From Oscillospiraceae bacterium (GTDB lineage: Bacteria; Bacillota; Clostridia; Oscillospirales; Oscillospiraceae), in NCBI GenBank assembly GCA_017502265.1, contig JAFVVI010000052.1, positions 1-41,654 on the forward strand: DNA of 41,654 nt. Reading direction: 5' to 3'. Positions within the stretch are counted from its first letter, which is position 1. Every line of letters begins with the position of its first letter. The notes under the pieces are model-generated. The model was given only the letters and a program-made list of their open reading frames with translations, had not been told where the DNA came from and made no database searches. The translations under genes were made by a program, and so were the position numbers. Below are positions 4,789 through 37,303 of the stretch, one piece after another.

Positions 4789-5814
4789 ATGAGTAACATT
4801 GGCGTATTGGGCGCCGGCACCTGGGGTATGGCCCTTGCCAGAATGCTGTGTAATAACGGCCATACCGTGTCCGTGTGGTCGGCGCTGGAAAAGGAAGTGA
4901 CGGCCTTTGCCGCCACCCGCCGGCATCCTAACCTGCCGGGCATGGAGATCCCGGAAGCCATTGCCTTTACTGGCGATATTGCCGAGGTCTGCCGGCAAAA
5001 GGATATCCTCCTGTTTGCTGTGCCGTCACCCTTTGTGCGGTCCACGGCCCGACAGGCTGCGCCCCATATCCCCGACGGCCAGATCATCGTGGATGTGGCC
5101 AAGGGTATCGAGGAGGCAACTTTGCTCACTATGACGGGCATTATTGCTCAGGAGATCGCAAATCCCACCGTGAAGCTGGTGGCCCTGTCCGGCCCTACCC
5201 ACGCAGAGGAGGTTGCCAAGGACCTGCCTACCACCATCGTGTCCGCCTGTGAGGACCAGCAGGTGGCGGAGCTGGTACAGAATGTGTTCTGGGGCACCTG
5301 TATGCGCGTGTATACCAATGACGATGTGTTGGGCGTGGAGCTGTGCGGCGCGGTGAAAAATGTCATTGCTCTTGCCTCCGGCGTGGCGGCCGGTCTTGGT
5401 TATGGCGACAATATCAAAGCCGCGCTGATTACCCGGGGTATGGCGGAGATCTCCCGCTTGGGAATGGCCATGGGCTGCCGGGAGCAGACCTTTGGCGGCC
5501 TGGCCGGTATCGGCGATTTGATCGTCACCGCCACCAGTGTCCATAGCCGCAATAACCGCTGCGGTATGCTCATCGGCCAGGGTGTACCTGTGGATGAAGC
5601 CATCCGACAGGTGGGAATGGTTGTGGAGGGTATCAATGCCTTGCCGGCAGTTATGACCCTTGCAGAAAAGTACAATGTGGAAATGCCTATTGTCAAAGCC
5701 GCCTGGCAGGTGGTAAAGGAGGGCGTTTCTCCCAAGGATGTCGTCCAGCAGCTGATGGGCCGGGATAAGAAACCCGAATTGCCCCCCGCCGCTTGGGACA
5801 ATCATTACCAATAA
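4789..5814 (+). CDS. gpsA: NAD(P)-dependent glycerol-3-phosphate dehydrogenase
   Basis: Makes sn-glycerol 3-phosphate from dihydroxyacetone phosphate for phospholipid synthesis, in the cytoplasm. The 341-residue length is normal. The N-terminal dinucleotide fold has GAGTWGMALARML at residues 7-19. VDVAKGIEE, LSGPTHAEEV and ELCGAVKNVIALASG (with the catalytic lysine in the last) follow in order, then LAGIGDLIVTATS and the NRCGMLIGQG loop near the C-terminus, all GpsA hallmarks. Second gene of the operon, followed by a strong terminator. The identification is secure. Confidence 0.97.
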   Translation: MSNIGVLGAGTWGMALARMLCNNGHTVSVWSALEKEVTAFAATRRHPNLPGMEIPEAIAFTGDIAEVCRQKDILLFAVPSPFVRSTARQAAPHIPDGQIIVDVAKGIEEATLLTMTGIIAQEIANPTVKLVALSGPTHAEEVAKDLPTTIVSACEDQQVAELVQNVFWGTCMRVYTNDDVLGVELCGAVKNVIALASGVAAGLGYGDNIKAALITRGMAEISRLGMAMGCREQTFGGLAGIGDLIVTATSVHSRNNRCGMLIGQGVPVDEAIRQVGMVVEGINALPAVMTLAEKYNVEMPIVKAAWQVVKEGVSPKDVVQQLMGRDKKPELPPAAWDNHYQ

Positions 5815-5846
5815 AAAACAGGGTGCATCACGCACCCTGTTTTTAC
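5814..5846 (+). terminator. Terminator after gpsA
   Basis: A perfect 12-13-bp stem (A-run plus CAGGGTGC) with a 5-nt ATCAC loop and T5 tail, immediately after the gpsA stop codon. Confidence 0.9.
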
Positions 5847-5849
5847 TGC

Positions 5850-6225
5850 AACATAACAAAGAAGTAGCCCTTAACTGATTTCTTTACACCAGTTAAGGGC
5901 TACTTCTGTGCTATCTTGGTATCTAACATCATTGGTTAACCTCGCTTTCTGCAGTTTGGACAGTTCTTTCGATCCACCTATGAAATCCGCTCCAAAACAT
6001 GTATTCTTATGATTCTTACCATCTTACTCTAAGGGAGTATCCTGTATGTTGGAACATTTCCCGAATCGGAAGTTCTGTCTTGGGGTTGCTACTTAGTACA
6101 TTGGTATCACCCTTTCTGACTATAAGATAACATAAATAATAAGTATTTGCAATATGTAATAATGTACAAAATACACAAAACGGACTTGTTGAAACTGCGG
6201 AAATTATAAACAATCACCACATATA
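5850..6225. other. Non-coding gap with no credible gene
   Basis: This stretch between gpsA and ychF is richer in A+T than its neighbours and has no ORF with a ribosome site. A 50-codon open minus-strand frame (5871-6023) lacks a plausible start and could be the remnant of a lost gene. It ends inside the perfect inverted repeat listed separately. I see no tRNA, known riboswitch or mobile-element end. Confidence 0.5.
5860..5907. repeat. Perfect 18-bp inverted repeat
   Basis: Arms 5860-5877 and 5890-5907 are exact reverse complements around a 12-nt loop. The arm begins AGAAGTAGCCC. There is no T-run on either side, so it is not a classical terminator. The tail of a decayed minus-strand frame lies in it, so it may be the relic of a small mobile or repetitive element. 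Confidence 0.75.
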
Positions 6226-6227
6226 CC

Positions 6228-6257
6228 TTGACGGCCAAGTAATCCTCGTGATATAAT
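6228..6257 (+). promoter_or_regulatory. Orphan sigma-A promoter facing a terminator
   Basis: TTGACG (6228-6233) and TATAAT (6252-6257) are 18 nt apart on the plus strand. No plus-strand gene follows; the strong hairpin at 6276-6305 begins only some 12 nt after the expected transcription start. It could give a very short RNA, or be left over from a deleted gene. Confidence 0.55.
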
Positions 6258-6273
6258 AAATCCGTTGAGGCGC

Positions 6274-6312
6274 AAAAAAGCAGCAGTCATTTGACTGCTG
6301 CTTTTCTTTTTT
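6274..6312. terminator. Bidirectional terminator at the end of ychF
   Basis: A GC-rich stem (6280-6289 with 6292-6301) is flanked by A6 on the left and TTTTCTTTTTT on the right, so it ends minus-strand ychF transcripts and any plus-strand RNA from the 6228 promoter. Confidence 0.85.
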
Positions 6313-8082: not shown

Positions 8083-9930
8083 ATGAACCATAAAAAAATC
8101 AAGTCCCGTTTTTTGAATATGACAACACTAACGATTGCAGGCGTTCTGTTATTATTGCTCTCAGCTGTTATTTTGTTGTGGTATGGTAATGCAAACAGCA
8201 TGCAAGCTATGCCTGCCTTAGTGGCACAAGTATATTTTGACGGCGAGTACCGTATTGCCGACGGGCAGTGGCAAAAAATTGTAAAAGGAAACCATATTCC
8301 TTCTACTGAAGGCGATGTGACCCTGCGAGGCAATTTCCACATGTTGGCGCCGGATGGTGAGTATGTTGGTATTTACAGCGGTGATGTTCCGATTGCCTTT
8401 TATACCAATCATATTAACCTGACATTTTATGAGGGTGAAAATGAGCCATTTGTAACGGATGTGGAAAATTCTTTATACGGAGATTCTGCTTGCTGCGTGG
8501 AGTGGACAGCCTATACGCTTACAACCGAAAGCGAAGAGCCAATCGAGATCCTTGTTCATAATCCCCATAGTTTTGGTAACGAAACCGCCATTGACGAAAT
8601 GCTTTCCACCACGGCTTTATGGACGGATATTGGGTTTGAAAAAAGCGTTCTTGAAAGCGGAAACACCCAAAGAGATATTGGCCTGGTGTTTGTTATCGTT
8701 TCTCTTATCGTTTTGGGAACTGCGTTGTTTTCAACACTGATACATATAAAAAACAGTAAGATTCTTTGGTTATTCGGCATCGTAATTTTGTTCGCAGGCA
8801 CATACCTGTCTTATAGTGCAGACGGCGTTTCATTCTGGAGCGAATCCGTTGTATCAAATACGACGATTTTGGGCTGCTCAATGATGTTCTATATGCTCTT
8901 CCTTTCTATTGCGCTTGTGCACTTCCTGAAAGGCACGAGAACCATTGGTACAATCACCGTTATTCTTCTCGGTTTTGTTAACGCAGTGCTTTTTGTTTTA
9001 CCGATCTTAACGGATATGTTGTTTTATGATTTGTGGCTTTACTGGGCTGCTGCGCAAATGCTTGTAAACATCATTCTGCTTGGTTGCCTTATACGAGAGT
9101 TCTTTGTTACAAAAGGAAAAGAACGCTGGCTTTATATCGGCTCGATTTTGCCGCTTATCTCTTTCGGCATGGATGTTATTATGACAGACCTTGGATTATG
9201 GAAGGGCGGACTTGCGTCTAAATACATTTTTATTGTTTTCTTTATTGCTATAATGGTTGCGGTGCTGAAAGTTATACCAAACAGCATCAACGCTCTTGCC
9301 AAAGCAAAAGAACTGGAAACGGAAAAAATGGTTTTGAATGCCGAGCTTGCTGAAAGCCGCATTTCTACAATGATGAGCCAGATCCGACCGCATTTTATCT
9401 ATAATACCCTTGGAAGTATCGAGCAGCTTTGTGAATTGGATCCGCCCAAGGCCGGAGAGCTTGTCCATAACTTTGCGAAATATCTGAGAGGTAATTTTGG
9501 AGAACTGGATAATCCAAAGCCGATTTTAATGTCGCAGGAAATGGAGCACGTACGCCATTATATCAGTATTGAAAACGTGCGTTTTCCAGATATGACGTTC
9601 TCATTTGAGATGAATTCAGACGATTTTCATATTCCTGCACTTACCATTCAGCCAATTGTAGAAAATGCGATCAAGCACGGACTTATGAAATTGCAAAAAG
9701 GAGGGACAATCCGTGTAATCTCCTATGAGACCGATACCCATTACTGTGTTTCGGTGGAGGATGACGGTGTGGGATTTGATACAGGTGTCCTGATTGACGA
9801 AAGAAAACACGTGGGAATCCGTAATATTCGTGGAAGATTAAAGGCAATGGTAAACGGCACACTTGAAATTGAAAGCACTCAGGGTGTTGGCACCAAGGTC
9901 TTGATAACGATTCCTAAGGAGGTGGAATAA
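8083..9930 (+). CDS. 7TM LytS-type sensor histidine kinase
   Basis: A 615-residue membrane sensor. One hydrophobic segment near residues 17-33 is followed by an extracellular part (~34-205). Seven membrane spans follow at ~207-395, the plan of 7TMR-DISM receptors. A short coiled linker (KAKELETEKMVLNAELAESR) leads to a LytS/His_kinase domain with phospho-accepting His437 in QIRPHFIYNTL. The HATPase domain has the N-box IVENAIKHG near 525 and the G-box DDGVGFD near 560. A GAGGAG site precedes the ATG. Its stop overlaps the response regulator start by one base, so they are a translationally coupled two-component pair. The extracellular ligand is unknown. Confidence 0.88.
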   Translation: MNHKKIKSRFLNMTTLTIAGVLLLLLSAVILLWYGNANSMQAMPALVAQVYFDGEYRIADGQWQKIVKGNHIPSTEGDVTLRGNFHMLAPDGEYVGIYSGDVPIAFYTNHINLTFYEGENEPFVTDVENSLYGDSACCVEWTAYTLTTESEEPIEILVHNPHSFGNETAIDEMLSTTALWTDIGFEKSVLESGNTQRDIGLVFVIVSLIVLGTALFSTLIHIKNSKILWLFGIVILFAGTYLSYSADGVSFWSESVVSNTTILGCSMMFYMLFLSIALVHFLKGTRTIGTITVILLGFVNAVLFVLPILTDMLFYDLWLYWAAAQMLVNIILLGCLIREFFVTKGKERWLYIGSILPLISFGMDVIMTDLGLWKGGLASKYIFIVFFIAIMVAVLKVIPNSINALAKAKELETEKMVLNAELAESRISTMMSQIRPHFIYNTLGSIEQLCELDPPKAGELVHNFAKYLRGNFGELDNPKPILMSQEMEHVRHYISIENVRFPDMTFSFEMNSDDFHIPALTIQPIVENAIKHGLMKLQKGGTIRVISYETDTHYCVSVEDDGVGFDTGVLIDERKHVGIRNIRGRLKAMVNGTLEIESTQGVGTKVLITIPKEVE

Positions 9931-10706
9931 TGATTGCCATAGCAGTTGACGACGAAATATTAATGCTTGGCGCTTTAGTAGCAGCCATTAAAGCATCACC
10001 CGATATCTCTGAAGTTTCTCAGTTTTCCGGCTGTGATGAAGCCCTTGCCTTTGTAAAAGAAAATTCGGTTGACGTTGCATTTTTGGATATTAATATGCGT
10101 GGTATGGGCGGACTTGCACTTGCGGAAAAGATCCTTAATGCTTGTCCCGATTGCAAAATCGTATTTTGTACCGGATATGAGGAATATGCTATTCCCGCCT
10201 TTAAGCTCCACGCCTCCGGATACTTAATGAAACCTGTATCGGCCAAAGACGTGCAGATAGAGATTGATAATATCAAAGGGATTCGTCAAAAAGAAAAACC
10301 GCTTACAGTAAAATGCTTCGGCAATTTCGAGGTCTATGCTAAGGGAGAAAAGCTTACATTCAAACGTTCAAAAACAAAAGAGTTGTTTGCCTTTTTGGTG
10401 GATCGAAACGGTGCGGGGGTTACGGTTGCGGAAATTGGAGTTGCACTCTGGGAAAACGATGAAGAGCAAAAGAACCAAAACTATATCCATCAATTATTTC
10501 GTGATCTACGCCAAACCCTTGAAGCAATTGGTATGGAAGAAATTTTCGAGAGAAACAACTATCTTTATTCTGTGAATCCCGAGAAAATGGATTGTGATTA
10601 TTATAGTTATTTAAAAACCGGAAAGCCCGAATTTATCGGTGAGTATATGTCCCAGTACAGCTGGGCAGAAGAAACTTGCGGATTGCTTTGGGAAAAAAGA
10701 TCTTAA
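9930..10706 (+). CDS. Response regulator with winged-helix output domain
   Basis: A 258-residue cytosolic regulator. The receiver domain occupies residues 1-~118, with acidic residues VDDE at 6-9, phospho-acceptor Asp53 in FLDINMRG, Thr in FCTGYEEYA and Lys in YLMKPVSA. The output domain (~125-215) starts VKCFGNFEVYAKGEKLTFKR and continues with KTKELFAFLVDRNG. This is the OmpR-like winged helix found in SARP-type and related clostridial regulators, rather than the LytTR domain usually paired with LytS kinases. It is the partner of the preceding kinase and the last gene before a terminator. Its targets are unknown; the downstream membrane-protein cluster is a candidate. Confidence 0.88.
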   Translation: MIAIAVDDEILMLGALVAAIKASPDISEVSQFSGCDEALAFVKENSVDVAFLDINMRGMGGLALAEKILNACPDCKIVFCTGYEEYAIPAFKLHASGYLMKPVSAKDVQIEIDNIKGIRQKEKPLTVKCFGNFEVYAKGEKLTFKRSKTKELFAFLVDRNGAGVTVAEIGVALWENDEEQKNQNYIHQLFRDLRQTLEAIGMEEIFERNNYLYSVNPEKMDCDYYSYLKTGKPEFIGEYMSQYSWAEETCGLLWEKRS

Positions 10707-13078: not shown

Positions 13079-14038
13079 ATGCCGAAAAAACAAAGAAAGT
13101 TTGCTGATGATGGCTGGGCTGTTTGGATTGATGGTGAGGATACAAGCACGATTCACATTAACGACTGGCTGAACCCAATGAGCAAAAGCTATGTAGACAT
13201 CGCAATTCACATACGGGGTATCAAGTCAAGCAAGTCGCTGAATGTGTATGTGCCATTCCAGGTTTTTGACGAAGAAATTGAAGATGTGTCGTTATCCTTT
13301 GGAGATACAAAAATACTGCAGGCGGTATTCAGTGCCGCCTGCATTGTGGACTATAAGAAGAATCAACATACCTCAGAGATCGCTTACAACGGCAAAACGG
13401 TAGACATTGTACATATAAGCACTACGAGCTTTAAAGCAGAGCCGTTATCTAACGGAACGCTGATCCGTGTTGATCTGCAGGAATTACAACCATATTTTGA
13501 CAACAATGAAGCCTACTTTATTTGGCGTATGCCCCATAAAACCCTGGATGAAATTTTTAAACCGCGGGTGGATGTGGGAAATGCATTGGATCGGTTGAGA
13601 GATCTGATCACCACGCCTGTGATTTCTGAAAAATACGGCTATTCTATTCGGATCAATGAATCCAGACTATTGCCGGAGGAGATCACGAGAATCGGCGCAT
13701 TTCACCGCCAAAAGCTGAATAAGGCAGTTATCACAATTTCGGTGGATGAAAACTACGAGCTGAACGATTCCGGCTGCTACCGCATTCGTCGTTTGGAGGA
13801 GAATTTATATAAAGATTATCTTCCTGCGGATTACCACAGAGAAGATGTCATTACTTATCAATGGAACCAAAGTCGCGAACAAAATTATCAGGGCCAGTTT
13901 AACTTCTATTACAGCATAATAAAAAACTCTGTCAGCAAAGGCAGTATGTTTTTATATATGATTTTGCTTTTTATACTTGGTATTCTGAGCGATGCTATTT
14001 CAGACACCGTTCGTGCTTTGCTTGGTTTGCTTACATAG
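13079..14038 (+). CDS. Tail-anchored protein of unknown function
   Basis: A 319-residue protein, mostly soluble, with one hydrophobic segment at the very end (~294-316, FLYMILLFILGILSDAI), so it is probably anchored with its main part in the cytoplasm. The soluble part is beta-rich and has a mid-protein stretch DLITTPVISEKYGYSIRI. I do not recognise a family. AAGGAG lies 10 nt before the ATG. The phosphatase gene begins 12 nt after its stop with its ribosome site in the gap, so they are surely co-transcribed, and a role in the partner-switching circuit is likely by position. Confidence 0.75.
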   Translation: MPKKQRKFADDGWAVWIDGEDTSTIHINDWLNPMSKSYVDIAIHIRGIKSSKSLNVYVPFQVFDEEIEDVSLSFGDTKILQAVFSAACIVDYKKNQHTSEIAYNGKTVDIVHISTTSFKAEPLSNGTLIRVDLQELQPYFDNNEAYFIWRMPHKTLDEIFKPRVDVGNALDRLRDLITTPVISEKYGYSIRINESRLLPEEITRIGAFHRQKLNKAVITISVDENYELNDSGCYRIRRLEENLYKDYLPADYHREDVITYQWNQSREQNYQGQFNFYYSIIKNSVSKGSMFLYMILLFILGILSDAISDTVRALLGLLT

Positions 14039-14050
14039 GGAGGTTTCGGT

Positions 14051-16888
14051 GTGAGATTAATAGTTCCTATATTGCTTAACTGTGTTCTGGTTCTGATTGT
14101 ATATCTTGCGGACAAGTATACTCCGGCAAAAAAACTGCCGAATATAGCAAAGCAAATTATTATTGGTATTTTGTTTGGCGGTATTTCTGCCTTTGCGTCA
14201 AGCTATGGCGTGCAGTGGCTGGGAACCACGGTAAATGTCCGTGATGCGGCTCCGCTGTCTGCCGGTCTTATTTTCGGCGCGCCTGCAGGCATCATATCCG
14301 GCCTGATCGGAGGCCTTTATCGTTGGTTCTCTGTGTATTGGGGCGGCGGTATGTATACGAGGCTTGCCTGCAGCATCGCAACGATTCTTGCCGGATTTAT
14401 GGCCGCAGGTCTCAGAAAGCTGATGTTTGACAACAAAAAGCCCACTTGGAGTTACGGCATATGTATTGCTGTGGTGTGCGAAGTTATCCATATGATCCTG
14501 ATTTTCCTGACCAATATGGATAATTCTTCCCAGGCCTTTGAGTTTGTCAAGGGTGCCACTGCTCCAATGATGCTCGGTAATTCCGTGGCTGTTGGAGTAT
14601 CTATCATACTGGTTTCTCTTTTTAGTCACGAGCGCTTTTTTAGAAAGAAAACTTCAGAAGGCATTGCCCACACTTTTCAGCGAAGACTTCTCAGCTGCAT
14701 TGTGATTGCCTATCTCATTACCAGCACCTTTACTCTTATCCTCCAGAATGGAATGGCGCAGATTGAAACACAAGAAGTGTTTACTGTTGCTATCAATGAC
14801 GTTGAGGCAGCTGTAAGAGAGAAATCCAACCGCCAGCTTCTTGAAATTGCAGAACAAGTCAAGCAGGAATACGAAAAAGATCCGGCGGTATCCCTGTCCG
14901 GCTTTGCAGAAAAATACGATATCAAGGAAATCAATGTTGTTGCTCCGGGTGGCTTAATCACAAATTCCACAGAAGCGGATGTTATTAATAACTATGATAT
15001 GAATAGCAAGGCTCAATCCAAAGAATTTGTAGATACGCTTAGAGTTCAGGATTCTTTCGTACAAGAGTATTCGCCTAGAGGCAAGGATGAATCTGTTTGG
15101 AGAAAATATGCTGCTATCAACTTAAAAAACGGTGGATTTATTCAAGTTGGTTATGATGCCGAGCAGTTCCATGAAATGCTCAATGAGTTTGTAATTGATG
15201 TTACCAAGAATCGTCATGTCGGTACTAGCGGTTTTGTAGCGGTACTTGATGAACAACTCAACATGGTAATTGATAATGACTATGCAGGCAAGCATATTTC
15301 TTCAATTGGCATTAATCCCCCCAAAGAGATGACTCAAGGGCAAACTGCTACCGCACTATATAATGCCGACATTGTAGATGGTATCAGTAATTTGAGCGCA
15401 GAATATATGTATGTATTCAAGTTTGTTGAGGGTTATTGCCTGATTGCGGCTATGCCGGTGGATGAAGCTATGTTTATGCGCGACGCTTCTATGCTGACAA
15501 GCGTTTTTATGCAGGTGATTATTTTTGCGACCCTCTTCGTATTTATTTACTTACTCATTAAGCGCGTTATCATTAATAATCTGAAAAAAATCAACGATAC
15601 CCTTGCGCAAATTACAGATGGTGACCTGAGCGTGACTGTCGATGTGCGTTCCAACGTGGAATTTGCTTCGCTGTCAGACGATATCAACTCCACAGTTGCT
15701 ACCCTGAAACGGTATATCGCCGAAGCAGCTGCCCGTATTGATAAGGAGCTGGAATATGCTAAACAAATACAGCTTTCGGCACTGCCCACAAACTTCCCCG
15801 AAAACGAAGAATATGGCATCTATGCTGAAATGATCGCCGCAAAAGAAGTCGGCGGTGACTTCTACGATTTCTACAAGTTAAATGATACAACCGTGGCATT
15901 CCTTGCTGCGGATGTTTCGGGCAAGGGTATTCCGGCGGCAATGTTTATGATGACTGCCAAGACCATTATCAAAGACCTTGCAGAAAGCGGTATGGCTGTA
16001 AATGACATCTTTACAAAGGCAAATGAAAAGCTTTGTGAAAACAATGAGTCGGGTATGTTTGTAACGGCTTGGATGGGTATTTTGGATCTGACTACCGGCA
16101 ACGTACAGTTTGCCAACGCAGGCCATAATCCACCCCTCTTAAAACGTGCAGACGGCTCGTTTGAAACTTTAAAAACCCGTGCCGGATTTGTTCTTGCAGG
16201 TATGGAGGGTGTTCGTTACCGAGTCGTCGAAATCACATTAAACGAAGGCGACCGATTATTCTTATACACAGACGGTGTGCCGGAGGCTACAAACATAGAC
16301 AACAAGCTTTACGGTGAGGATAGACTGTTATCCTTTATGAACAAAAATGCTTCTATGGAAGCCACTAAACTTTTACCGGCGCTGAAAGCCAATATCGATG
16401 AGTTTGTGGGTGAAGCACCACAGTTTGATGATATTACCATGCTAATGTTTGATTACAAACCTAAAAAAGGAGGTGAGCATATGACGAATAAAACATTCCC
16501 TGCCAAAACCGAATCGTTGTCTGAGGTTCTCGGCTTTGTAGAGGAAACTCTTGAGGGCTTTGAATGTCCTATAAAAATCCAAACGGCAATCTGTGTCGCC
16601 ATTGAAGAAGTGTTCGTCAATGTTGCTCACTATGCCTACCCCGACGGCGAAGGTGATATGTCGCTCCATATTGGTTTTGACGACCAAAGCCGTGCTATTA
16701 CCTTCCGTATGACGGATAAAGGCGTTCCTTTTGATCCGCTCGCAAAACCGGATCCTGATATTACTTTATCGGCTGAGGATCGTGAAATAGGCGGTCTTGG
16801 CATCTTTATTGCCAAGAAAACAATGGATTCACTTAGTTACTCCTACGAAAACGGAGAAAATGTTTTGACCATGATTAAAAAGATATAA
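14051..16888 (+). CDS. Membrane sensor fused to SpoIIE-type phosphatase and RsbW-type kinase
   Basis: A 945-residue protein with a GTG start behind GGGAGG. Residues ~1-190 hold several spans with LFGGISAFASSYGVQW and GAPAGIISGLIGGLYRW, the 5TM LytS-type input module. A span near 215 is followed by an extracytoplasmic Cache-like region (~235-480), another span (~485-508) and a HAMP-like linker. A PP2C/SpoIIE phosphatase lies at ~568-805 with AKEVGGDFYDF (Asp603), ADVSGKGIPAAM and DDITMLMF, its metal-binding acidic motifs. Residues 811-945 form a GHKL ATPase like RsbW/SpoIIAB: IEEVFVNVAHYAY, DKGVPFDPL and GGLGIFIAKK. Partner switches normally use two separate proteins for these opposing activities. 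It should dephosphorylate and phosphorylate the STAS proteins encoded downstream. Confidence 0.88.
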   Translation: MRLIVPILLNCVLVLIVYLADKYTPAKKLPNIAKQIIIGILFGGISAFASSYGVQWLGTTVNVRDAAPLSAGLIFGAPAGIISGLIGGLYRWFSVYWGGGMYTRLACSIATILAGFMAAGLRKLMFDNKKPTWSYGICIAVVCEVIHMILIFLTNMDNSSQAFEFVKGATAPMMLGNSVAVGVSIILVSLFSHERFFRKKTSEGIAHTFQRRLLSCIVIAYLITSTFTLILQNGMAQIETQEVFTVAINDVEAAVREKSNRQLLEIAEQVKQEYEKDPAVSLSGFAEKYDIKEINVVAPGGLITNSTEADVINNYDMNSKAQSKEFVDTLRVQDSFVQEYSPRGKDESVWRKYAAINLKNGGFIQVGYDAEQFHEMLNEFVIDVTKNRHVGTSGFVAVLDEQLNMVIDNDYAGKHISSIGINPPKEMTQGQTATALYNADIVDGISNLSAEYMYVFKFVEGYCLIAAMPVDEAMFMRDASMLTSVFMQVIIFATLFVFIYLLIKRVIINNLKKINDTLAQITDGDLSVTVDVRSNVEFASLSDDINSTVATLKRYIAEAAARIDKELEYAKQIQLSALPTNFPENEEYGIYAEMIAAKEVGGDFYDFYKLNDTTVAFLAADVSGKGIPAAMFMMTAKTIIKDLAESGMAVNDIFTKANEKLCENNESGMFVTAWMGILDLTTGNVQFANAGHNPPLLKRADGSFETLKTRAGFVLAGMEGVRYRVVEITLNEGDRLFLYTDGVPEATNIDNKLYGEDRLLSFMNKNASMEATKLLPALKANIDEFVGEAPQFDDITMLMFDYKPKKGGEHMTNKTFPAKTESLSEVLGFVEETLEGFECPIKIQTAICVAIEEVFVNVAHYAYPDGEGDMSLHIGFDDQSRAITFRMTDKGVPFDPLAKPDPDITLSAEDREIGGLGIFIAKKTMDSLSYSYENGENVLTMIKKI
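16466..16483 (+). promoter_or_regulatory. Internal ribosome binding site and start codon for a free kinase domain
   Basis: AAAGGAGGTGA lies 7 nt (from AGGAGG) before ATG 16481, which is in frame with the fusion gene. Translation from it would give a 135-residue protein (16481-16888) that is exactly the RsbW-like kinase domain. In the fusion these bases are read as KKGGEH. Confidence 0.65.
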
Positions 16889-16903
16889 AGGAGATTTAAC
16901 TGT

Positions 16904-17200
16904 ATGACTATTGAAATCAAGAAAAATAATCAGGAAACCATCATCGAGATTGTAGGAAGACTTGATACTATCACTGCCCCCGCGCTTGATAAAACCATCA
17001 ATGAGGATATTGGAGATACCAAAAACCTTGTTCTTGACGTAAAGGGCATGGAGTACATCTCCAGTGCAGGACTTCGTGTTCTGCTTGCCGCGCAGAAGAA
17101 GATGCAAAAGATTGGCTCTATGAAAGTAACGGGCGTTTGTGAAGCGGTTATGGAAGTCTTTGAAATGACCGGATTTGCCGACATTTTGGTAATTGAATAA
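16904..17200 (+). CDS. STAS-domain anti-sigma factor antagonist (SpoIIAA/RsbV-like)
   Basis: A 98-residue single-domain STAS protein in the cytoplasm. The phosphorylation loop is MEYISSAGLRVLL, where Ser54 aligns with the serine phosphorylated in SpoIIAA and RsbV. The C-terminal helix region VMEVFEMTGFADIL is typical. In its unphosphorylated state such a protein binds a RsbW-type kinase and frees that kinase's other partner. AAAGGAG precedes the ATG. It is encoded 15 nt after the phosphatase/kinase gene, its expected partner, and its stop overlaps the next start by one base. Confidence 0.92.
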   Translation: MTIEIKKNNQETIIEIVGRLDTITAPALDKTINEDIGDTKNLVLDVKGMEYISSAGLRVLLAAQKKMQKIGSMKVTGVCEAVMEVFEMTGFADILVIE

Positions 17201-17766
17201 TGGAGCTTGTAAGCGAGGCTGTCGCATTTGCAGTGAAGGCCCACGACGGAATGCGACGCAAAAAAAGTGAGTCCCCATACATCCTGCATCCAATGGAAGC
17301 GGCTGTGATTGTCGGCACGATGACGGATGATCAGAATTTGATCGCTGCAGCCGCACTGCACGATGTTGTAGAGGACGCGGGTATTACCATCCAGGAAATT
17401 GAAGAGAGATTCGGCAGACGTGTGCGAGAACTTGTGGAGTCTGAAACCGAGGATAAACGTGCCGACTTGCCGCCTGCGTCAACCTGGCGTATCCGCAAGG
17501 AAGAATCTCTCAGTGTTCTCAAAAACACTGATGATATTGCCGTGCTGATGGTATGGCTGGGCGATAAGCTTGCCAATATGCGTTCCATCTACCGTGATTT
17601 CAAAGTAGAGGGCGAGGCAATGTGGCAGCGATTCAATCAAAAGGATGTTAATGAGCAGGCCTGGTACTACCGCGCAATTGTTAAATTGACCGAGCGTTTG
17701 TCTAACACTTCGGCGTGGCTTGAATACAAAACGCTTACGGAACTCGTGTTTGGAAAAGGAGAATAA
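17200..17766 (+). CDS. SpoT/Mesh1-like HD-domain hydrolase (putative ppGpp hydrolase)
   Basis: A 188-residue cytosolic protein consisting of the HD hydrolase half of RelA/SpoT, without a synthetase domain. Visible metal and active-site residues are His30 (YILHP), His54-Asp55 (LHDVVEDAG, also Glu58-Asp59) and Asp122 with Asn126-Arg128 (LGDKLANMR). All the residues needed for Mn-dependent pyrophosphohydrolysis appear to be present. The C-terminal WYYRAIVKLTERL helix follows the core. It is translationally coupled to the STAS gene (1-base overlap) and followed after 4 nt by the STAS-kinase gene. Removal of ppGpp is a family-based prediction; another nucleotide substrate is possible. Confidence 0.82.
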   Translation: MELVSEAVAFAVKAHDGMRRKKSESPYILHPMEAAVIVGTMTDDQNLIAAAALHDVVEDAGITIQEIEERFGRRVRELVESETEDKRADLPPASTWRIRKEESLSVLKNTDDIAVLMVWLGDKLANMRSIYRDFKVEGEAMWQRFNQKDVNEQAWYYRAIVKLTERLSNTSAWLEYKTLTELVFGKGE

Positions 17767-17770
17767 ATAA

Positions 17771-18943
17771 ATGGATGTTACCTATCGTATAGACAAAGAT
17801 ATTTTATATATTGCCGTTGAAGGCAGAATCGATGCTTCCAACGTAGCTGAAGCAGAAGAAAAGATTTTCAGTATTAAAAATGATAACCCAGGCAAGCACA
17901 CTGTGGTGGATGCCGATAAACTGGAGTACATATCTTCCGCAGGCTTGCGTGTGATTTTAAGACTGAGAAAAGAAGAACCTAAGCTTGCCATTATTAACGT
18001 GGCTTCTGACGTATACGAAGTCTTTGATATGACCGGATTTACCGATATGGTTACGGTTGAAAAGGCATATCAGAGAATGAGCGTCGAGGGTTGTGAGTTC
18101 ATTGCAAAGGGTGCTAACGGTGCCGTTTATCGCTACGATGATGAAAACATCCTCAAGACCTATTATGCAAAGGACGCGCTTCCTGAGATTAAGCAAGAAC
18201 GGGAAAATGCGAGAAAAGCCTTTGTTCTCGGCATCAATACCGCAATTCCTTACGGTATCGTTCGTGTGGATGACGGCTACGGTACGGTCACTGAGCTTTT
18301 GAATGCCACCAGTGTTACCAAATTGATTCGCAATAACCCCGATGATATGTCTGAGGCGGCGAAATATTACATTGATATGCTGAAAAGCATTCACGCCATC
18401 AAGGTAGAAGACGGCGAAGTTCCCGACATGAAGGAAACTGCTCTTGCCTGGGCAGACTTTGTAGCCCCTCATCTTCCTGAAGAGCAAGGCAAAAAACTTC
18501 GCGCCTTGATTGAAGCCGTTCCCAAGAGAAACACCCTGATGCACGGTGACTACCACACCAATAACATTATGGTACAAAACGGCGAACCCCTGCTCATCGA
18601 CATGGATACCCTGTGCATGGGTCACCCTGTATTTGAACTGGGTTCTATGTTTAATGCATTTATCGGATATTCTGAGCTGGATCATCAAGTGACGATGAAT
18701 TTCTACGGTTACACCCACGAAACGGCTGAAAGATTCTGGGATATGGCACTGAAGGCTTATCTGGGTACCGAGGATGAAACTGTTTGCAGAAGCGTTGCAG
18801 AAAAAGCGATGATCATCGGTTATACCCGTATGCTTCGTCGTGCTATTCGCCGTCCTGAAGAGGCAGACAGCCCTGCAAAAATTGCAAGATGCAAAGAAAT
18901 GCTTGCGGTGCTACTTAACAAGGTTGACACATTGATTTTTTAA
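17771..18943 (+). CDS. STAS domain fused to an APH-fold phosphotransferase (TIGR02172-like)
   Basis: A 390-residue cytosolic fusion. Residues 1-~98 are a complete STAS domain with LEYISSAGLRVIL (Ser56 is the expected phosphorylation site) and YEVFDMTGFTDMV, closely matching the free STAS protein encoded upstream. Residues ~105-390 are an aminoglycoside-phosphotransferase/choline-kinase-like fold: KGANGAVYRY as nucleotide loop, the catalytic loop HGDYHTNN (Asp260), and LLIDMDTLCMGHPVFEL with the metal-binding Asp. I associate this kinase type with the TIGR02172 family. Its substrate is unknown; antibiotic resistance is not implied. The STAS half suggests that the RsbW-type kinase and phosphatase control it. 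Confidence 0.85.
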   Translation: MDVTYRIDKDILYIAVEGRIDASNVAEAEEKIFSIKNDNPGKHTVVDADKLEYISSAGLRVILRLRKEEPKLAIINVASDVYEVFDMTGFTDMVTVEKAYQRMSVEGCEFIAKGANGAVYRYDDENILKTYYAKDALPEIKQERENARKAFVLGINTAIPYGIVRVDDGYGTVTELLNATSVTKLIRNNPDDMSEAAKYYIDMLKSIHAIKVEDGEVPDMKETALAWADFVAPHLPEEQGKKLRALIEAVPKRNTLMHGDYHTNNIMVQNGEPLLIDMDTLCMGHPVFELGSMFNAFIGYSELDHQVTMNFYGYTHETAERFWDMALKAYLGTEDETVCRSVAEKAMIIGYTRMLRRAIRRPEEADSPAKIARCKEMLAVLLNKVDTLIF

Positions 18944-18967
18944 ATCTTGGTGGAAAGGAACAAGATT

Positions 18968-19864
18968 ATGAAAAACAAAAAACTGTTTTTACCCACAATT
19001 ATTCTTGTTGTAGCAATTTTAGCAATAGCTGCTTATTCGATTATCAGCAGCATAGCCAAAAAACCTACCGTTACGGAAGGAGAGTTTCCTTTTTCTATTA
19101 CATACGAACTGAATGGCGAAAGGGTTACCATTGAAGACGTTTATAAGGTACATTACGTCAGAAACGACGGATATGCCGATACCAAGTCCCGCGTCTACGC
19201 CGGCGAGCTCAAGAGTTCAGGAGAAGACGACACGCTTTATACTCTCAAAAAAGATGAAAATACTCGTGTTGAATTATGGTCCCATTTTTATGCGGACTAT
19301 TTGATGGGCGACACCGAGTATGATTACTTTGACGACGAGCCTTTTGAACCAAGAATTTATTATTATGATGCTCAAGAAACCGAGTATCATGATGAAGAAA
19401 CGTTATCGGCACAAGGCGTAAAACTTATCAGTTTTGAATACCCCGCGCCGATTGAAAATTCGTTTGTTTTCTCACACATCTCCTATTTTAGCGGTGCGAT
19501 TGTATTGCCAACGCTGCTTATTGCACTACTCGCTCTTGTTGCAATAATTATTTTTGCAAGAAAAGAAAAAGAATTACAGCGCAAAGCAATTGATGTTGTT
19601 TCTATTATTTTGAATTTTGTTATCGGCTTTATCCTTGTGCCGTTTATTACAATTGCAGCGGCATTAATCGATATTAATGGCGGCGGTCCAGAGCTTTATC
19701 GTCAAGTTTTGTACTTCATTCCCTCGCTTTCGGTATTGTGTATTGCGGCTTCGGTTGCTTTGCGTCGTAAGGGTTATGGTGTAAAGTCGCTTATTACTGC
19801 GCTTATTGGCCCCGCTGTTTTTATTGTATATTTAATCATTTGCGGTGTGGGTGGCTTGCTCTAA
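18968..19864 (+). CDS. Membrane protein of unknown function with an extracytoplasmic domain
   Basis: A 298-residue protein. Residues 7-30 are a signal anchor, ~31-175 are acidic and tyrosine-rich and probably outside the cell (YDYFDDEPFEPRIYYYD), and four hydrophobic spans follow between ~178 and ~298. A short charged loop (RKEKELQRK) lies between the first two. I chose ATG 18968 over an upstream in-frame TTG because GGAAAGGAA sits just before it. It lies 24 nt after the STAS-kinase gene and is probably the last gene of that operon. I recognise no family. Confidence 0.7.
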   Translation: MKNKKLFLPTIILVVAILAIAAYSIISSIAKKPTVTEGEFPFSITYELNGERVTIEDVYKVHYVRNDGYADTKSRVYAGELKSSGEDDTLYTLKKDENTRVELWSHFYADYLMGDTEYDYFDDEPFEPRIYYYDAQETEYHDEETLSAQGVKLISFEYPAPIENSFVFSHISYFSGAIVLPTLLIALLALVAIIIFARKEKELQRKAIDVVSIILNFVIGFILVPFITIAAALIDINGGGPELYRQVLYFIPSLSVLCIAASVALRRKGYGVKSLITALIGPAVFIVYLIICGVGGLL

Positions 19865-19960: not shown

Positions 19961-20359
19961 ATGACGGATCAGGAATTTAAAAGACTCAGTAGAGCGCAGC
20001 TGATCGATATTATCTACCAGTTCCAATTGCAAATTGACAAACTGAATGAAGAAAAACAGGAATTGGAACGGGAATTGGCCGACAAACGGCTTCGTTTGCG
20101 CAATGCCGGCAATATTGCCGATGCCGCCCTGGAAATTAACGACTGCTTCCGCAGCGCACAGAATGCTGCGGAGCAATACTTAAATGAAATCAAAGCGATC
20201 CGTGAAGAAACGGAAGCGCAGCGACAGAGGATTCTGGCAGAGGCGCAAGCGGAGGCGGAAGCAATCCTTGGGGGCGCAAAAAAGAAACATGGCGATTACG
20301 ATTCTGCAATAGAGGCGATTTTGAAAGAATACGGGCAGAGTCATTCGGATAACGGGTGA
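19961..20359 (+). CDS. Coiled-coil protein at the head of the pilus operon
   Basis: A 132-residue hydrophilic protein with two long heptad-rich helices: ~18-48 (QLQIDKLNEEKQELERELAD) and ~65-105 (alanine/glutamate-rich). No signal peptide, so it is cytosolic. AAAGGAGG precedes the ATG. Its stop overlaps the start of the signal peptidase gene (TGATG), so translation is coupled. Similar short coiled-coil genes occur next to signal peptidase and pilin genes in Clostridia. A role in organising secretion is inference only. Confidence 0.7.
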   Translation: MTDQEFKRLSRAQLIDIIYQFQLQIDKLNEEKQELERELADKRLRLRNAGNIADAALEINDCFRSAQNAAEQYLNEIKAIREETEAQRQRILAEAQAEAEAILGGAKKKHGDYDSAIEAILKEYGQSHSDNG

Positions 20360-20952
20360 TGGGTATGATACACAGAAAGAAAAAGGAAGTTTCTCTTCCT
20401 ACGAAAAGTCAAGTTGAAACAGAACGAAAGAGATACCGCCGTCAGAAAGCTTACAACAAAGCTTTGCGCGGAACGGTATATGTCTTAACGATCGTAGCTG
20501 CGGTCTCCGTGTTGATTGCAACGCTGATATTACCCGTTCTTCAAATTGAGGGCACCAGCATGGAGCCGACTCTGTCAAACGGTGACATCGTGCTGCTTAC
20601 CAAAACACCCCGCTTTGACCGGGGTGATCTTTGTGGATTCACTTGGAACAATAAACTTTTGATAAAACGAGTAATTGGTTTGCCGGGCGATTGGATCGAA
20701 ATCGATATTGACGGAAATGTATATCTCAATGGCGATAAATTGAAAGAACCGTATGTACAGCAAATGGCCTTGGGAGAATGTGATCTGGAATTTCCATTCC
20801 AAGTGCCCCAGGAGCAGTATTTTGTAGTGGGAGATATGCGGGAAAGCTCTATCGATTCCCGTAACTCACTGATCGGATGCATTCCAAAGGATCAGATTGT
20901 CGGAAAAGTTTTCTTTAGAGTATGGCCATTTAAGAGCATCCGATTTTTTTAA
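20359..20952 (+). CDS. lepB: Signal peptidase I of the pilus locus
   Basis: A 197-residue type I signal peptidase. One N-terminal membrane anchor (~35-58) follows a basic cytosolic tail. Catalytic Ser67 is in EGTSMEPTL and the general-base Lys103 in LIKRVIGLPGD; GDMRESSIDSRNSLIG is the box E region. It cleaves signal peptides on the outer face of the membrane. Dedicated signal peptidases are known partners of sortase pilus operons, and here the gene precedes the adhesin and pilin genes. I chose ATG 20359 (overlap with the previous stop) over GTG 20356 or the later ATG 20365; the N-terminus could shift by one or two residues. Confidence 0.92.
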   Translation: MGMIHRKKKEVSLPTKSQVETERKRYRRQKAYNKALRGTVYVLTIVAAVSVLIATLILPVLQIEGTSMEPTLSNGDIVLLTKTPRFDRGDLCGFTWNNKLLIKRVIGLPGDWIEIDIDGNVYLNGDKLKEPYVQQMALGECDLEFPFQVPQEQYFVVGDMRESSIDSRNSLIGCIPKDQIVGKVFFRVWPFKSIRFF

Positions 20953-20988
20953 ACAAGCAGAGCATAAGCAGCAAAAGGACAAGCGTTT

Positions 20989-23900
20989 ATGGGTTTCATT
21001 GAACAGTACTTGTTACAATTGAATACTGAAAAACGACGGTGGCGGTGTGCTGTAGCGATTCTGACAGCCCTGTCACTGCTCGTAGCGCTTGTCACCGTAT
21101 GGAACCTGCGCATGACAGGCATTACGATTGCAAATAACGCATCTTGCGGATATGAGGAACACCAACATATCGAAGATTGCGTGAGAGAAAATGTCCTGAT
21201 TTGCGGTCTGCCAGAGCATATTCACAAAGCTGGATGTTACTCCGACCCCAAGGCGGATACAGAAACCTTGTTGGATTGGCAAAATATGTTTGCTGACTAT
21301 CCGTACACCGGTGTTCTTCGTGAGGATTTAGTCGGAATTGCCAAAACCCAGGTGGGATATGCTGAGAGTCAGCTGAATTTTGAGGTAAACGACGACGGTG
21401 TACGACATGGTTATACAAGATATGGCGCATGGTACGGAGCGCCTTACAACGATTGGTCTGCGATGTTTGTGTCGTTCTGCCTGAGTTATGCCGGAGCAAA
21501 TGCAGCAGAATTTCCGAACAGTTCCGGCGCTGCAATGATGGCAGAACTTTGGAAAACACACGGAAAATACATTCCTGCGGGGGGCTATGTTCCCCAAAGT
21601 GGAGATATTGTATTTTTTAACAACAACACAGCAGGTATTGTTACAGAAATATTTAACTCTGCTTTCTATGTGATTCGTGGTGATATACACAATGCAGTTA
21701 CGAATGACATGATGCTCTTGCGCGACCCGTCCATTGTTGGTTGGGGATCCACGGAAACACCTGCCCCCCTGGATAAATTACAGACGGATGACTTGTTGGA
21801 TATATCAAACGGCCCTGTTTTTTCCATAATTGCAGGCGATAAAAATCAACAACGGCGAATGCAAAGCTTCACATATAAAGCTTCCCGCTCGACAACAGAA
21901 CTGATTCCTTATTTACATGCCAATGGCGGCAACTATTTTTTTACATTGCTGGACCTTAATAATGTGGAACTGCCCAAGGATGTAAACGGCAACTACATTG
22001 CTGTGGCTAACAAAGACTACAAGTTGACCTTTACCTTTAATAGCCCGAAGGGATTTCTTCCGGGAACATATCAGTATCAAATCCCCAACGGTATGATGGT
22101 AAATGGTGGTGCAGGTCATTTCGTCTTGAAGGACGGAACGAATGTTGGTAGCTGGGAGGTCACGGATACGGGTCTGATTACCCTTGTGTTCAACGAGCAT
22201 ATAAATAGCCGTGCGGACATTACTATCAGTTCCACACTGGGCATCCACTTCCCGGAGCAGGAAGACCCCATCGATTTTGACGGCTTAATCACAGTTAAGG
22301 TGGAACCGCCCGTCCAGCAGAAGGACCCAACCGTTTTATCAAAATGGGGTTCTCCCAATGCGAGCGCAAAAAAAATCAATTGGACAGTGCGAATCGACGG
22401 ACACACAGATTCTCAGATTCCCGGAAATATTCTTACCGACCAACCCACCCTGAGCGATTGGAGCAGACCCCATAGCTACACACAATCGGATATAGACGGC
22501 GGTCTGACATTTGGCGTTTCCGATCCGGATGGTGGATGGCATAACTGGACTGTTTACGCTGACGACCCACACCTGATATGGAATGAAACAGGATGGTCCT
22601 ATAAGATCCCCAAAACTGTTACCTGCGACTATTGCGGAGAGCTGGAATTGGGAAATGATGGCTGGGTCTACCTGATCAATTATACTTCCACCCCCACGCA
22701 GCTCAATACCCCGGGCACCTTTGACTACGAGAATAAGGTCACAGTGGACGGCCAGACCGCATGGGGCTGGAGTAATTTTACCCATGTTGAGATTGAAGCC
22801 GAGATCGTTAAGAACGGCTCTTTTGTATCCGATGCTGCCGGAGGCGGATTCCTTTGGGAGTTCCAGGTTACCATACCGGGACGGCCGGAAGGCCAGCGAG
22901 CGGAATATTCCTGGTTTGTTATGGATGAGATGCGTCTCATGGACGATAAGGGCACAATCATAGGCCGTGCGCAAAATGATGCCCATCTATCTACAGTTAC
23001 AACAATCTATAATGGGAAAGCTATCCAAATACCTCGCATTCAGGATGCTACGGATGAGGATATGTTCGCTTGGGACAATGCTTGGACAGCAACAGAAAAT
23101 GGTATCAGCTACAACCGAACGATCAATCTCCTCTGCCGCTGCCAATGCACTCCGGAAACCTGCCACTGGACAGGTTGTGGAGATTACTGGTTCCAGAAAG
23201 ATAATGGTGAATGGGCTGCCAACGGTTTTTGCCAGTGTTGGACAGAGACCCAGAATATGACCTTTACCTTCGTTTACAAAACCGAGGATCTGTCCTTAAT
23301 TAAAGAATATGGCTCACTTGGCTATCAAGTAAACAACCATGCGCAACTGTACTATATGCCCGATGGCAGCAACTCCGTTCGGGTTTCCTATGATGATGCG
23401 ACGGTCGCCATTCCCAATTTGTTTGAAAAACAGTTGACCCACGATTTTAACGGCTATACCGCCCACTATAAGATCACAGTCAATGAAGCGAAGCAGATGT
23501 TGACAGACGGATCGCCTCTGACAATTCGCGATGAAATGACAGACACACTTGCTTATATAAGCGGTTCGCTTGCTATCACAACTGAAAATGCAAACGGTCA
23601 CACAAGCTTCCTGCAGCAAGATGTGGATTATACCGTAACCTATGACGGCACAGGCCATCAAGTGAACACCTCCGGCAAGAAAGTCCATGTGCTGAACATC
23701 GTGATCCTGAATCCCCAACCGGTCAAGTACATACTTGATTACGACACTACATTGATTATGCCGGAGCAGATCACGGGAGGCATTAAGTACAGCAACTCCG
23801 CTTCCATCACGCTGTGGGGCGATGAGGTCTCTGACGATGCCGTTGAAAAGGTCTATGCAGATATCAACATCGCCACCAAGAGCTTCTCGGTAGATGTGTT

Positions 23901-24375
23901 TAAAACCTGCGCGCTGACAGAAAAACCTCTTCCGGGCGCAACCTTTGGTTTGCACAACGCCCAGGGCGGTCTGATTACCACCGGTGTCACCGACAGCAAC
24001 GGCAGGCTTGTGTTCCAAACCAATGTTATCCAAGGCATTATTTTGCAGGAACATATGCTCTACTACTTGCAAGAGGTTCGACCACCTCCTGCATACCAAT
24101 TGGACGATACCCAGCATTGGTTCTGCTTCTGCAGCGATTCCGGCAATGCCTGTAGCGAATGCGATAAGCTTCTTTACGATGTAGAGGCTTACCGAATTCC
24201 CTTTGAGCAGGTGGGCATCATTGATATTGCTAACTATCCCGTAAATGTGATGCTACCTGCCACCGGTGGAATAGGCACACCCATTTATATACTTTGCGGA
24301 TTGGTTCTTACCATAGGTCCGCTCGTATACGGATTCAGCTTGAGGCGCAAAAACGAAAGGAGGTCAAAACATTAG
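20989..24375 (+). CDS. Large LPATG surface adhesin, probable pilus tip protein
   Basis: 1128 residues. A hydrophobic export segment (~20-45) is followed by a His/Cys motif pair (CGYEEHQHIEDC, CGLPEHIHKAGC). A CHAP/NlpC-like domain at ~105-235 (YGAWYGAPYNDWSAMFVSFC) has Ser157 where the catalytic Cys is expected, and no His in the FFNNNTAGIV strand. Adhesin-type beta domains follow (~285-960), with a Cys-rich insertion at ~716-755. A Cna_B/SpaA-like domain (~965-1075) ends in a second Cys cluster. The sorting signal is LPATG at 1089-1093, then a hydrophobic span and RRKNERR. Sortase would join it to the pilin or cell wall. Size and position before the major pilin suggest the tip subunit. Confidence 0.85.
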   Translation: MGFIEQYLLQLNTEKRRWRCAVAILTALSLLVALVTVWNLRMTGITIANNASCGYEEHQHIEDCVRENVLICGLPEHIHKAGCYSDPKADTETLLDWQNMFADYPYTGVLREDLVGIAKTQVGYAESQLNFEVNDDGVRHGYTRYGAWYGAPYNDWSAMFVSFCLSYAGANAAEFPNSSGAAMMAELWKTHGKYIPAGGYVPQSGDIVFFNNNTAGIVTEIFNSAFYVIRGDIHNAVTNDMMLLRDPSIVGWGSTETPAPLDKLQTDDLLDISNGPVFSIIAGDKNQQRRMQSFTYKASRSTTELIPYLHANGGNYFFTLLDLNNVELPKDVNGNYIAVANKDYKLTFTFNSPKGFLPGTYQYQIPNGMMVNGGAGHFVLKDGTNVGSWEVTDTGLITLVFNEHINSRADITISSTLGIHFPEQEDPIDFDGLITVKVEPPVQQKDPTVLSKWGSPNASAKKINWTVRIDGHTDSQIPGNILTDQPTLSDWSRPHSYTQSDIDGGLTFGVSDPDGGWHNWTVYADDPHLIWNETGWSYKIPKTVTCDYCGELELGNDGWVYLINYTSTPTQLNTPGTFDYENKVTVDGQTAWGWSNFTHVEIEAEIVKNGSFVSDAAGGGFLWEFQVTIPGRPEGQRAEYSWFVMDEMRLMDDKGTIIGRAQNDAHLSTVTTIYNGKAIQIPRIQDATDEDMFAWDNAWTATENGISYNRTINLLCRCQCTPETCHWTGCGDYWFQKDNGEWAANGFCQCWTETQNMTFTFVYKTEDLSLIKEYGSLGYQVNNHAQLYYMPDGSNSVRVSYDDATVAIPNLFEKQLTHDFNGYTAHYKITVNEAKQMLTDGSPLTIRDEMTDTLAYISGSLAITTENANGHTSFLQQDVDYTVTYDGTGHQVNTSGKKVHVLNIVILNPQPVKYILDYDTTLIMPEQITGGIKYSNSASITLWGDEVSDDAVEKVYADINIATKSFSVDVFKTCALTEKPLPGATFGLHNAQGGLITTGVTDSNGRLVFQTNVIQGIILQEHMLYYLQEVRPPPAYQLDDTQHWFCFCSDSGNACSECDKLLYDVEAYRIPFEQVGIIDIANYPVNVMLPATGGIGTPIYILCGLVLTIGPLVYGFSLRRKNERRSKH

Positions 24376-37253: not shown

Positions 37254-37303
37254 AGGAAAAAGGACGGGCTGTGGCGAATACCTTTAACCGTGGAGGTGAG
37301 GCG

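Follow-up and report, generated by a model that had tools for sequence, protein, structure and literature searches.

What does a partner switch act on when no sigma factor is encoded beside it? The question is raised by six genes, here called A to F, at positions 13079-19864 (+ strand) of a 41,654-nucleotide stretch of DNA (the window) from an Oscillospiraceae bacterium, contig JAFVVI010000052.1 of assembly GCA_017502265.1. The original prediction, made from the letters of this stretch, had described a partner-switching cluster without a sigma factor that responds to an envelope signal, with an alarmone hydrolase and a STAS-kinase as likely outputs. On balance we lean towards a sigma-free partner switch in which the APH-fold kinase E would be the direct target and the hydrolase D a companion of that kinase. 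The features on which this reading draws are listed below, all on the + strand.

13079..14038, +, gene A: 319-residue tail-anchored protein, family unknown, accessory to the window's clade of the module
14051..16888, +, gene B: sensor-phosphatase-kinase with 5TM-5TMR_LYT, HAMP, SpoIIE PP2C and RsbW-like HATPase_c_2 domains (Pfam)
15884..16456, +, PP2C (SpoIIE) domain of B: PF07228, residues 612-802, E 1.3e-50
16496..16879, +, RsbW-like kinase domain of B: PF13581, residues 816-943, E 4.4e-24
16904..17200, +, gene C: free STAS antagonist, PF01740, E 6.7e-16
17200..17766, +, gene D: 188-residue small alarmone hydrolase (HD_4), RelH/MixSpo-like, PF13328, E 5.4e-21
17771..18943, +, gene E: STAS-APH kinase, probable switch target (Pfam STAS and APH)
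17783..18067, +, STAS domain of E: PF01740, with the phosphoacceptor-type serine S56 (codon 17936-17938)
18074..18940, +, APH-fold kinase domain of E: G114, K129, E143, HGD 258-260, N265 and D277
18947..19864, +, gene F: membrane protein, family unknown, clade-specific accessory, likely start 18968

The six open reading frames (ORFs) keep the boundaries, the common direction and the tight spacing first described for them, with intergenic gaps of 12, 15, -1, 4 and 3 bp from A to F, and no sigma factor gene lies within 13079-19864. Purine-rich, ribosome-binding-like stretches precede the starts of A, B, C and E, and the start codon of D overlaps the final base of the stop codon of C; for F, the ATG at 18968, preceded by GGAAAGGAACAAG, is more likely the start than the TTG at 18947. 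Since consensus scans of the cluster for promoters and terminators gave no more sites than shuffled sequence, the operon structure is read from the spacing. The order A to E is repeated in four other loci (L046, L047, L051 and L053) at protein identities of 69-96 %, and this recurrence of the gene order, together with the gene fusions described below, rules out a chance neighbourhood.

Pfam supports the earlier domain calls for B, C, D and E, the HAMP match of B being marginal (25.5 bits, cut-off 25). The residues on which a partner switch depends are in place throughout the families compared, window included: the acidic metal-binding motif residues of PP2C are intact in 50 of 50 rows, and amongst 83 HATPase rows the N-box glutamate and the G1 aspartate are kept in all and the N-box asparagine in 79. 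In the alignment to 1th8, S54 of C (codon 17063-17065) falls on the phosphorylated serine of SpoIIAA, which we take to be Ser58; all 72 free STAS rows carry both motif serines, and all 81 STAS-APH rows a double serine over the same site. The cluster thus holds the PP2C residues, the HATPase boxes and the STAS phosphoacceptor serine of partner-switching systems, and we propose that exchange of the kinase's partner would depend on STAS phosphorylation here as well. As to the input, the 5TM-5TMR_LYT sensor domain of B suggests that a small outside ligand is at least as likely as an envelope signal; transporter S-components and receptors are related in the part of PMC11109136 cited here.

The kinase domain of E is equally well preserved. 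K129, H258, D260, N265 and D277 are kept in 110 of 110 rows (105 of them different) and E143 in 108, so that the lysine, the HGDxHxxN motif and the aspartate of APH kinases are all present. The best NCBIfam model is TIGR02172 (E 4.5e-35), but at 121.5 bits E scores below the curated cut-off of 228.2 and is not counted as a member. At E <= 1e-40 the subfamily was found in 5 of 398 evenly sampled genomes of the phylum, the window's own included and one match being partial, and it is therefore rare across the phylum.

Relatives were collected with a four-row alignment of E from named genome contigs, and the best 80 of 426 were read together with flanks of up to 10 kb in both directions (3 to 21.6 kb each, 1.24 Mb in total, many contigs being short), using domain hidden Markov models built from the loci themselves. 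Most are metagenome-assembled genomes (MAGs) from animal gut titled Clostridia, Clostridiales, Oscillospiraceae, Ruminococcaceae or Lachnospiraceae; two are Actinomycetota MAGs (Collinsella and Olsenella), and records without the MAG label include Flavonifractor sp. An82, Coprococcus catus VPIC661 and Erysipelotrichaceae bacterium NK3D112. An HATPase is fused to the STAS-APH gene or lies within 10 kb of it in 68 of the 80 loci, a second STAS within that distance in 63 and a PP2C in 50; all three are present in 25 of the 36 well-flanked loci. In 25 loci of the 80 the HATPase forms the C-terminus of the STAS-APH protein itself, and in the one such fusion scanned (L074) Pfam finds STAS, APH and HATPase_c_2. 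These single proteins place the APH domain between the substrate of the switch and its kinase.

Sigma factor genes, by comparison, are nearly absent. The original prediction had held that homologous clusters regularly carrying one would speak against it; a search of all ORFs of the 80 loci by blastp and phmmer, with eight of the nine sigma matches of the window's genome as queries, gave a clear sigma gene in one locus (L069, of extracytoplasmic function type) and a second, weak match in L076. No cognate sigma factor of the kind that belongs to sigma-B and sigma-F modules was found in the module. This near-absence, taken with the conserved switch parts and motifs, fits a partner switch that targets an enzyme and not a sigma factor.

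The second enzyme of the cluster, D, is a small alarmone hydrolase in that it has an HD_4 domain and the hydrolase residues of RelA/SpoT homologues (RSH), with no synthetase domain; its best NCBIfam model, spoT_relA, is matched in the N-terminal part only and below cut-off. R20, H30, H54, D55, E58, D59, D122, N126 and R128 are identical in 31 of 31 HD rows, and with the alignments as a guide we take these nine to be the RSH catalytic positions. The nearest solved chains are 7qoe, 4yf1 and 7qoc by profile and 7qoe and 7qoc by sequence, which the part of PMC10434055 cited here places in the MixSpo/RelH family, and the same source reports that RelH of C. glutamicum hydrolyses pppGpp, ppGpp and pGpp. 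Activity of D on (p)ppGpp is plausible from these resemblances; the substrate is not readable from the family, since characterised small alarmone hydrolases differ in preferring (p)ppGpp or (p)ppApp or in cleaving NADPH, as far as the cited parts of PMC9765508 and PMC10434055 go. A single RelA_SpoT synthetase domain was found in the window's genome; it belongs to a long RSH encoded on another contig, and both the hydrolase and the synthetase motifs of that protein appear intact by eye. Two further relatives may be mentioned. Locus L064 carries, besides an APH-linked HD hydrolase, a second and divergent one (5728-6291; 35 % identity over residues 2-86) directly upstream of a sensor-phosphatase-kinase. 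In L135 (88-2046) an unlinked relative of D forms the C-terminal part of a 652-residue protein whose unscanned N-terminal part is presumably ADP-ribosylglycohydrolase-like.

How regularly does D accompany the switch? An HD gene lies within 10 kb of the STAS-APH gene in 29 of the 80 loci and is adjacent (<200 bp) in 28, of which 27 have it upstream on the same strand; L054, L113 and L119 break off close to where the STAS-APH gene begins, so that an upstream hydrolase would not be visible there. Unfused loci have the order switch gene, HD, STAS-APH, and in L081, L128, L129 and L170 a STAS-APH-HATPase gene is followed by HD. Four close relatives (L048, L049, L056 and L057) keep B, C and E and lack HD. 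On the APH tree, the presence of HD needs 22 changes (five forced by starred branches) against a shuffled mean of 33.8, which indicates that HD has often been gained or lost, the tree not separating gain from loss. A search from the hydrolase side, through 391 genomes of the class, returned 30 loci, amongst which 23 besides the window had long HD matches, and in 7 of these 23 an APH was adjacent or fused. Single HD-APH proteins occur in four genomes, G260, G283, G608 and G583. The first two are amongst the 7 loci just mentioned; the other two came from querying 250 genomes of G260's family with the fused protein, which also gave four further adjacent HD/APH pairs, one identical to the Coprococcus catus pair; both of the fusions scanned match stretches of the NCBIfam models spoT_relA and TIGR02172. 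When 73 HD rows are placed on a tree, one change suffices for the 42 that are linked or fused to APH, against 23.7 when shuffled, and a node with 41 of them has a Shimodaira-Hasegawa-like approximate likelihood ratio (SH-aLRT) support of 93, L108 standing at an unresolved fork. In the 47-row tree of hydrolase-side rows and the window, 17 linked rows need two changes against 14.2, and a single clade is not rejected (approximately unbiased (AU) test, p 0.49). Rows were called unlinked mostly on a flank of about 1.5 kb, and 7 of the 12 unlinked-looking matches in G260's family were read, the other 5 having no locus.

The HD hydrolase thus goes with the APH kinase and is not a regular part of the switch. 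Of the two outputs that had been foreseen, the STAS-kinase is very likely the output, and the hydrolase as a regular output does not hold. Some observations were set aside. The correlation of HD and APH divergence (0.80 over 378 pairs) falls to 0.24 without close pairs and is given no weight; L174, at first sight an HD-STAS-APH fusion, is two genes; the lone hydrolase of G064 (L007/L045) is a different, unlinked hydrolase; and a looser-threshold HATPase match in L162 (106-1206) resembles an ABC transporter ATPase and was ignored.

Where HD is lacking, another phosphoesterase may stand beside the kinase. A PHP-domain gene occurs in the stretch read of 19 of the 80 loci, and in 13 it adjoins the STAS-APH gene:

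<200 bp downstream of STAS-APH, adjacent PHP gene: L072, L083, L085, L090, L093, L100, L102, L109, L110, L111, L113, L115 and L121 (contig ends truncate L115 and L121, and the PHP frame of L109 is in two pieces)

Pfam PHP is above cut-off in all 8 of the 19 that were scanned; the best NCBIfam model is 3',5'-nucleoside bisphosphate phosphatase in 4 of 4 scanned, well below its cut-off, and the nearest solved chains are PHP metal-dependent phosphoesterases. None of the 13 loci is amongst the 28 with an adjacent HD (P 0.002, ignoring kinship), and in these PHP occupies a position beside the kinase; amongst the 55 unfused loci, HD adjoins the kinase in 27 and PHP in 2. Both families are associated with nucleotide phosphate groups, RSH-type hydrolases with the ribose 3' position. 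For this reason we read the recurrent unit as a kinase with a nucleotide phosphohydrolase.

The domain content, the intact catalytic and phosphoacceptor motifs, their recurrence, the fusions, the grouping of APH-linked HDs and the replacement of HD by PHP elsewhere suggest a scheme whose phosphorylation steps, direction of control, shared pathway and substrates we infer from sequence. Membrane protein B would sense an outside cue and would combine a phosphatase (PP2C) and a kinase (HATPase) that act on the STAS domains, its HATPase having two possible STAS partners, the free C and the STAS of E. With C phosphorylated, the HATPase would be free to bind or phosphorylate the STAS of E; once dephosphorylated by the PP2C of B, C would take up the HATPase, the STAS of E would be released and the APH kinase switched. 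D would work alongside the APH kinase as a partner enzyme, probably in the same nucleotide pathway, and would not be a core part of the switch. A bolder version, which we hold as no more than tentative, is a new nucleotide-signalling cycle in which the APH kinase would add a phosphate to a ribose hydroxyl or otherwise make a phosphorylated nucleotide, HD of the alarmone type in some loci and PHP of the 3',5'-nucleoside-bisphosphatase type in others would remove the phosphate, and the switch would gate synthesis on the outside cue; it gained in plausibility because PHP was found beside the kinase in loci without an adjacent HD. If true, such a cycle would signal by a route separate from (p)ppGpp, c-di-GMP and c-di-AMP.

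Several observations weigh against a switch acting on E with D as its companion. No HD lies in the stretch read for 51 of the 80 loci, and the G260 and G283 fusions have no detected STAS, HATPase or PP2C amongst the retained ORFs of the 17 kb that were read; for these two reasons the link between D and E does not by itself tie D to the switch. In a third case, L165, the HD-APH fusion has a STAS gene about 160 bp upstream. In 11 of the 36 well-flanked loci the stretch read is missing one or more parts of the switch, and L073, L084 and L114 lack HATPase, second STAS and PP2C alike. The single origin of APH-linked HDs is only moderately supported, since the split with all 42 linked rows has a support of 1 and the 47-row set needs a single change in 77 % of bootstrap trees. 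The exclusion of HD and PHP may simply follow clades, 11 of the 13 adjacent-PHP loci having the fused STAS-APH-HATPase. The APH domain of E is remote from all solved kinases, the best being hygromycin-B 4-O-kinase (E 2.1e-5), and the window's genome (1.4 Mb) is 82 % complete.

Other explanations must be weighed against the same loci. The alarmone level could be the main output, with the kinase or C turning D on or off, and this we consider rather unlikely. The intact residues of D and its RelH-type nearest solved relatives, with the reported activity of the C. glutamicum member (PMC10434055, in the part cited), speak for it, as do the genes within 300 bp before an upstream D, an HATPase in 9, a PP2C-HATPase in 1 and a STAS in 11 of 27 loci. 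However, no HD ORF of the 80 loci contains a detectable STAS or HATPase domain, most loci have no HD in the stretch read, close relatives keep B, C and E without it, and the genome already has the long RSH with motifs that appear intact by eye. Control of a sigma factor encoded elsewhere, with E as an extra STAS antagonist and its APH domain incidental, appears less probable still. The window's genome does have nine sigma-70 region 2 matches, one of them SigK-like, and at its 82 % completeness two STAS domains were found, both in this cluster, with no separate SpoIIAA-like one; yet a clear sigma gene in one of 80 homologous loci, fusions that put the APH inside the switch and catalytic residues kept in 110 of 110 APH rows speak against this reading.

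Least probable, in our estimate, is a toxin-antitoxin-like pair in which the APH of E would make a harmful phosphorylated product that D removes, in the manner of the hydrolases that act as toxSAS antitoxins. Small alarmone hydrolases accompany toxSAS toxins according to the cited parts of PMC10434055 and PMC11782079, and D and APH are adjacent or fused; but 52 of the 80 loci have no adjacent HD, even if 13 of these have an adjacent PHP, and the RelA/SpoT-type synthetase that stands beside the hydrolase in toxSAS systems was not found, the sole RelA_SpoT domain of the genome being on another contig. PADLOC gave no match, and the search of viral contigs gave one weak relative. A defence or phage origin of the cluster was rejected on these two results and on PHROG matches limited to general phosphohydrolase and kinase families.

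The outer genes of the cluster are accessory. A and F have no Pfam or NCBIfam match at E 0.01, A has none in PADLOC or PHROG either, and no solved relative of A was found (best E 0.52). Homologues of A lie directly upstream of B in 10 of the 80 STAS-APH loci, with a further one downstream of STAS-APH in L082 (53-54 % identity), and homologues of F lie 3' of STAS-APH in 6 loci, two of these about 0.6 kb off. Three protein families recur beside the modules:

Proteins of about 580 residues with an RsbW-like HATPase domain, nine loci: L068 2142-3896, L069 6079-7833, L071 6751-8523, L078 13112-14845, L086 2718-4475, L088 7002-8741, L092 11577-13349, L110 8171-9967, L111 14798-16567
Recurrent family beside modules: L061 15803-17161, L072 4654-5895, L079 737-2332, L104 1148-2767, L123 11905-13512, L125 5809-7464
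Protein of about 199 residues: L052 7881-8480, L055 2713-3312, L056 9297-9989, L059 2-586, L061 8532-9131, L103 8608-9234, L161 6341-6940

The three Pfam-scanned members of the first family (L068, L071 and L078) are MatE transporters fused to HATPase_c_2, and all nine are without the G1-box glycine; a transporter under partner-switch control would, if true, be a further sigma-free output. In the second family the one member scanned, that of L104, is a sodium:dicarboxylate symporter with about 137 N-terminal residues without assignment. The third has no Pfam match, and in most of its loci it separates C from a second free STAS.

Within the window, the cluster is directly followed (19961-24375) by genes for a 132-residue protein, a signal peptidase I and a SpaA-domain pilin-like protein with an LPATG-type end, and similar blocks lie near the module in L047, L054, L057 and L107. 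Upstream (8083-10706) are a sensor kinase-like protein and a BtsR/LytR-like response regulator, families also represented in 5 and 6, respectively, of the 80 loci. A SigK-like sporulation sigma gene identified with NCBIfam (37154-37978) lies about 17 kb downstream of the cluster and showed no sign of a connection to it; some other sigma proteins of the genome appear sporulation-type by eye. In the G260 stretch, an unscanned ORF (L155 2-1033), about 5.5 kb from the HD-APH gene, appears sigma-like by eye.

The cluster shares with RsbU/RsbV/RsbW and SpoIIE/SpoIIAA/SpoIIAB a PP2C, an HATPase_c_2 kinase and a STAS with a conserved phosphoacceptor serine. It differs in that phosphatase and kinase are one polypeptide (B), no sigma factor is encoded, and the second STAS belongs to an APH kinase that is fused to HATPase in 25 of 80 loci. 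SiaABCD, HsbA-HsbD and BgrSTUWV-BgrR, which in the cited part of PMC8457831 are partner switches acting on diguanylate cyclases, likewise have an enzyme and not a sigma factor as output under a STAS-type partner; here, by contrast, the output would be an APH-fold kinase with a built-in STAS, in another phylum and another gene set. D has the length, HD_4 domain and catalytic residues of RelH/MixSpo enzymes (RelH Cg 7qod, RelH Ll 7qoe, Lmo0812 4yf1), whereas in the rows compared its group always occurs next to an APH kinase or joined to one. E has the APH motifs, with TIGR02172 as its best NCBIfam model, and is set apart by its remoteness from solved kinases, the N-terminal STAS or HD and the sub-cut-off score. 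Amongst titles and abstract beginnings of open-licence PMC papers, no prior description was found of STAS-APH kinases, of HD-APH proteins or of a partner switch with an alarmone hydrolase. Sigma-free partner switching as such is already known.

Partner switching is best known for the control of sigma factors and of a few diguanylate cyclases. The loci described here, mostly from gut Firmicutes, appear to put a kinase under such a switch, often as one STAS-kinase-HATPase protein, and give it as partner either of two unrelated phosphohydrolases of nucleotide type, HD or PHP. Should kinase and hydrolase act on a common substrate, an outside signal would be coupled to nucleotide chemistry directly, with no transcriptional step.

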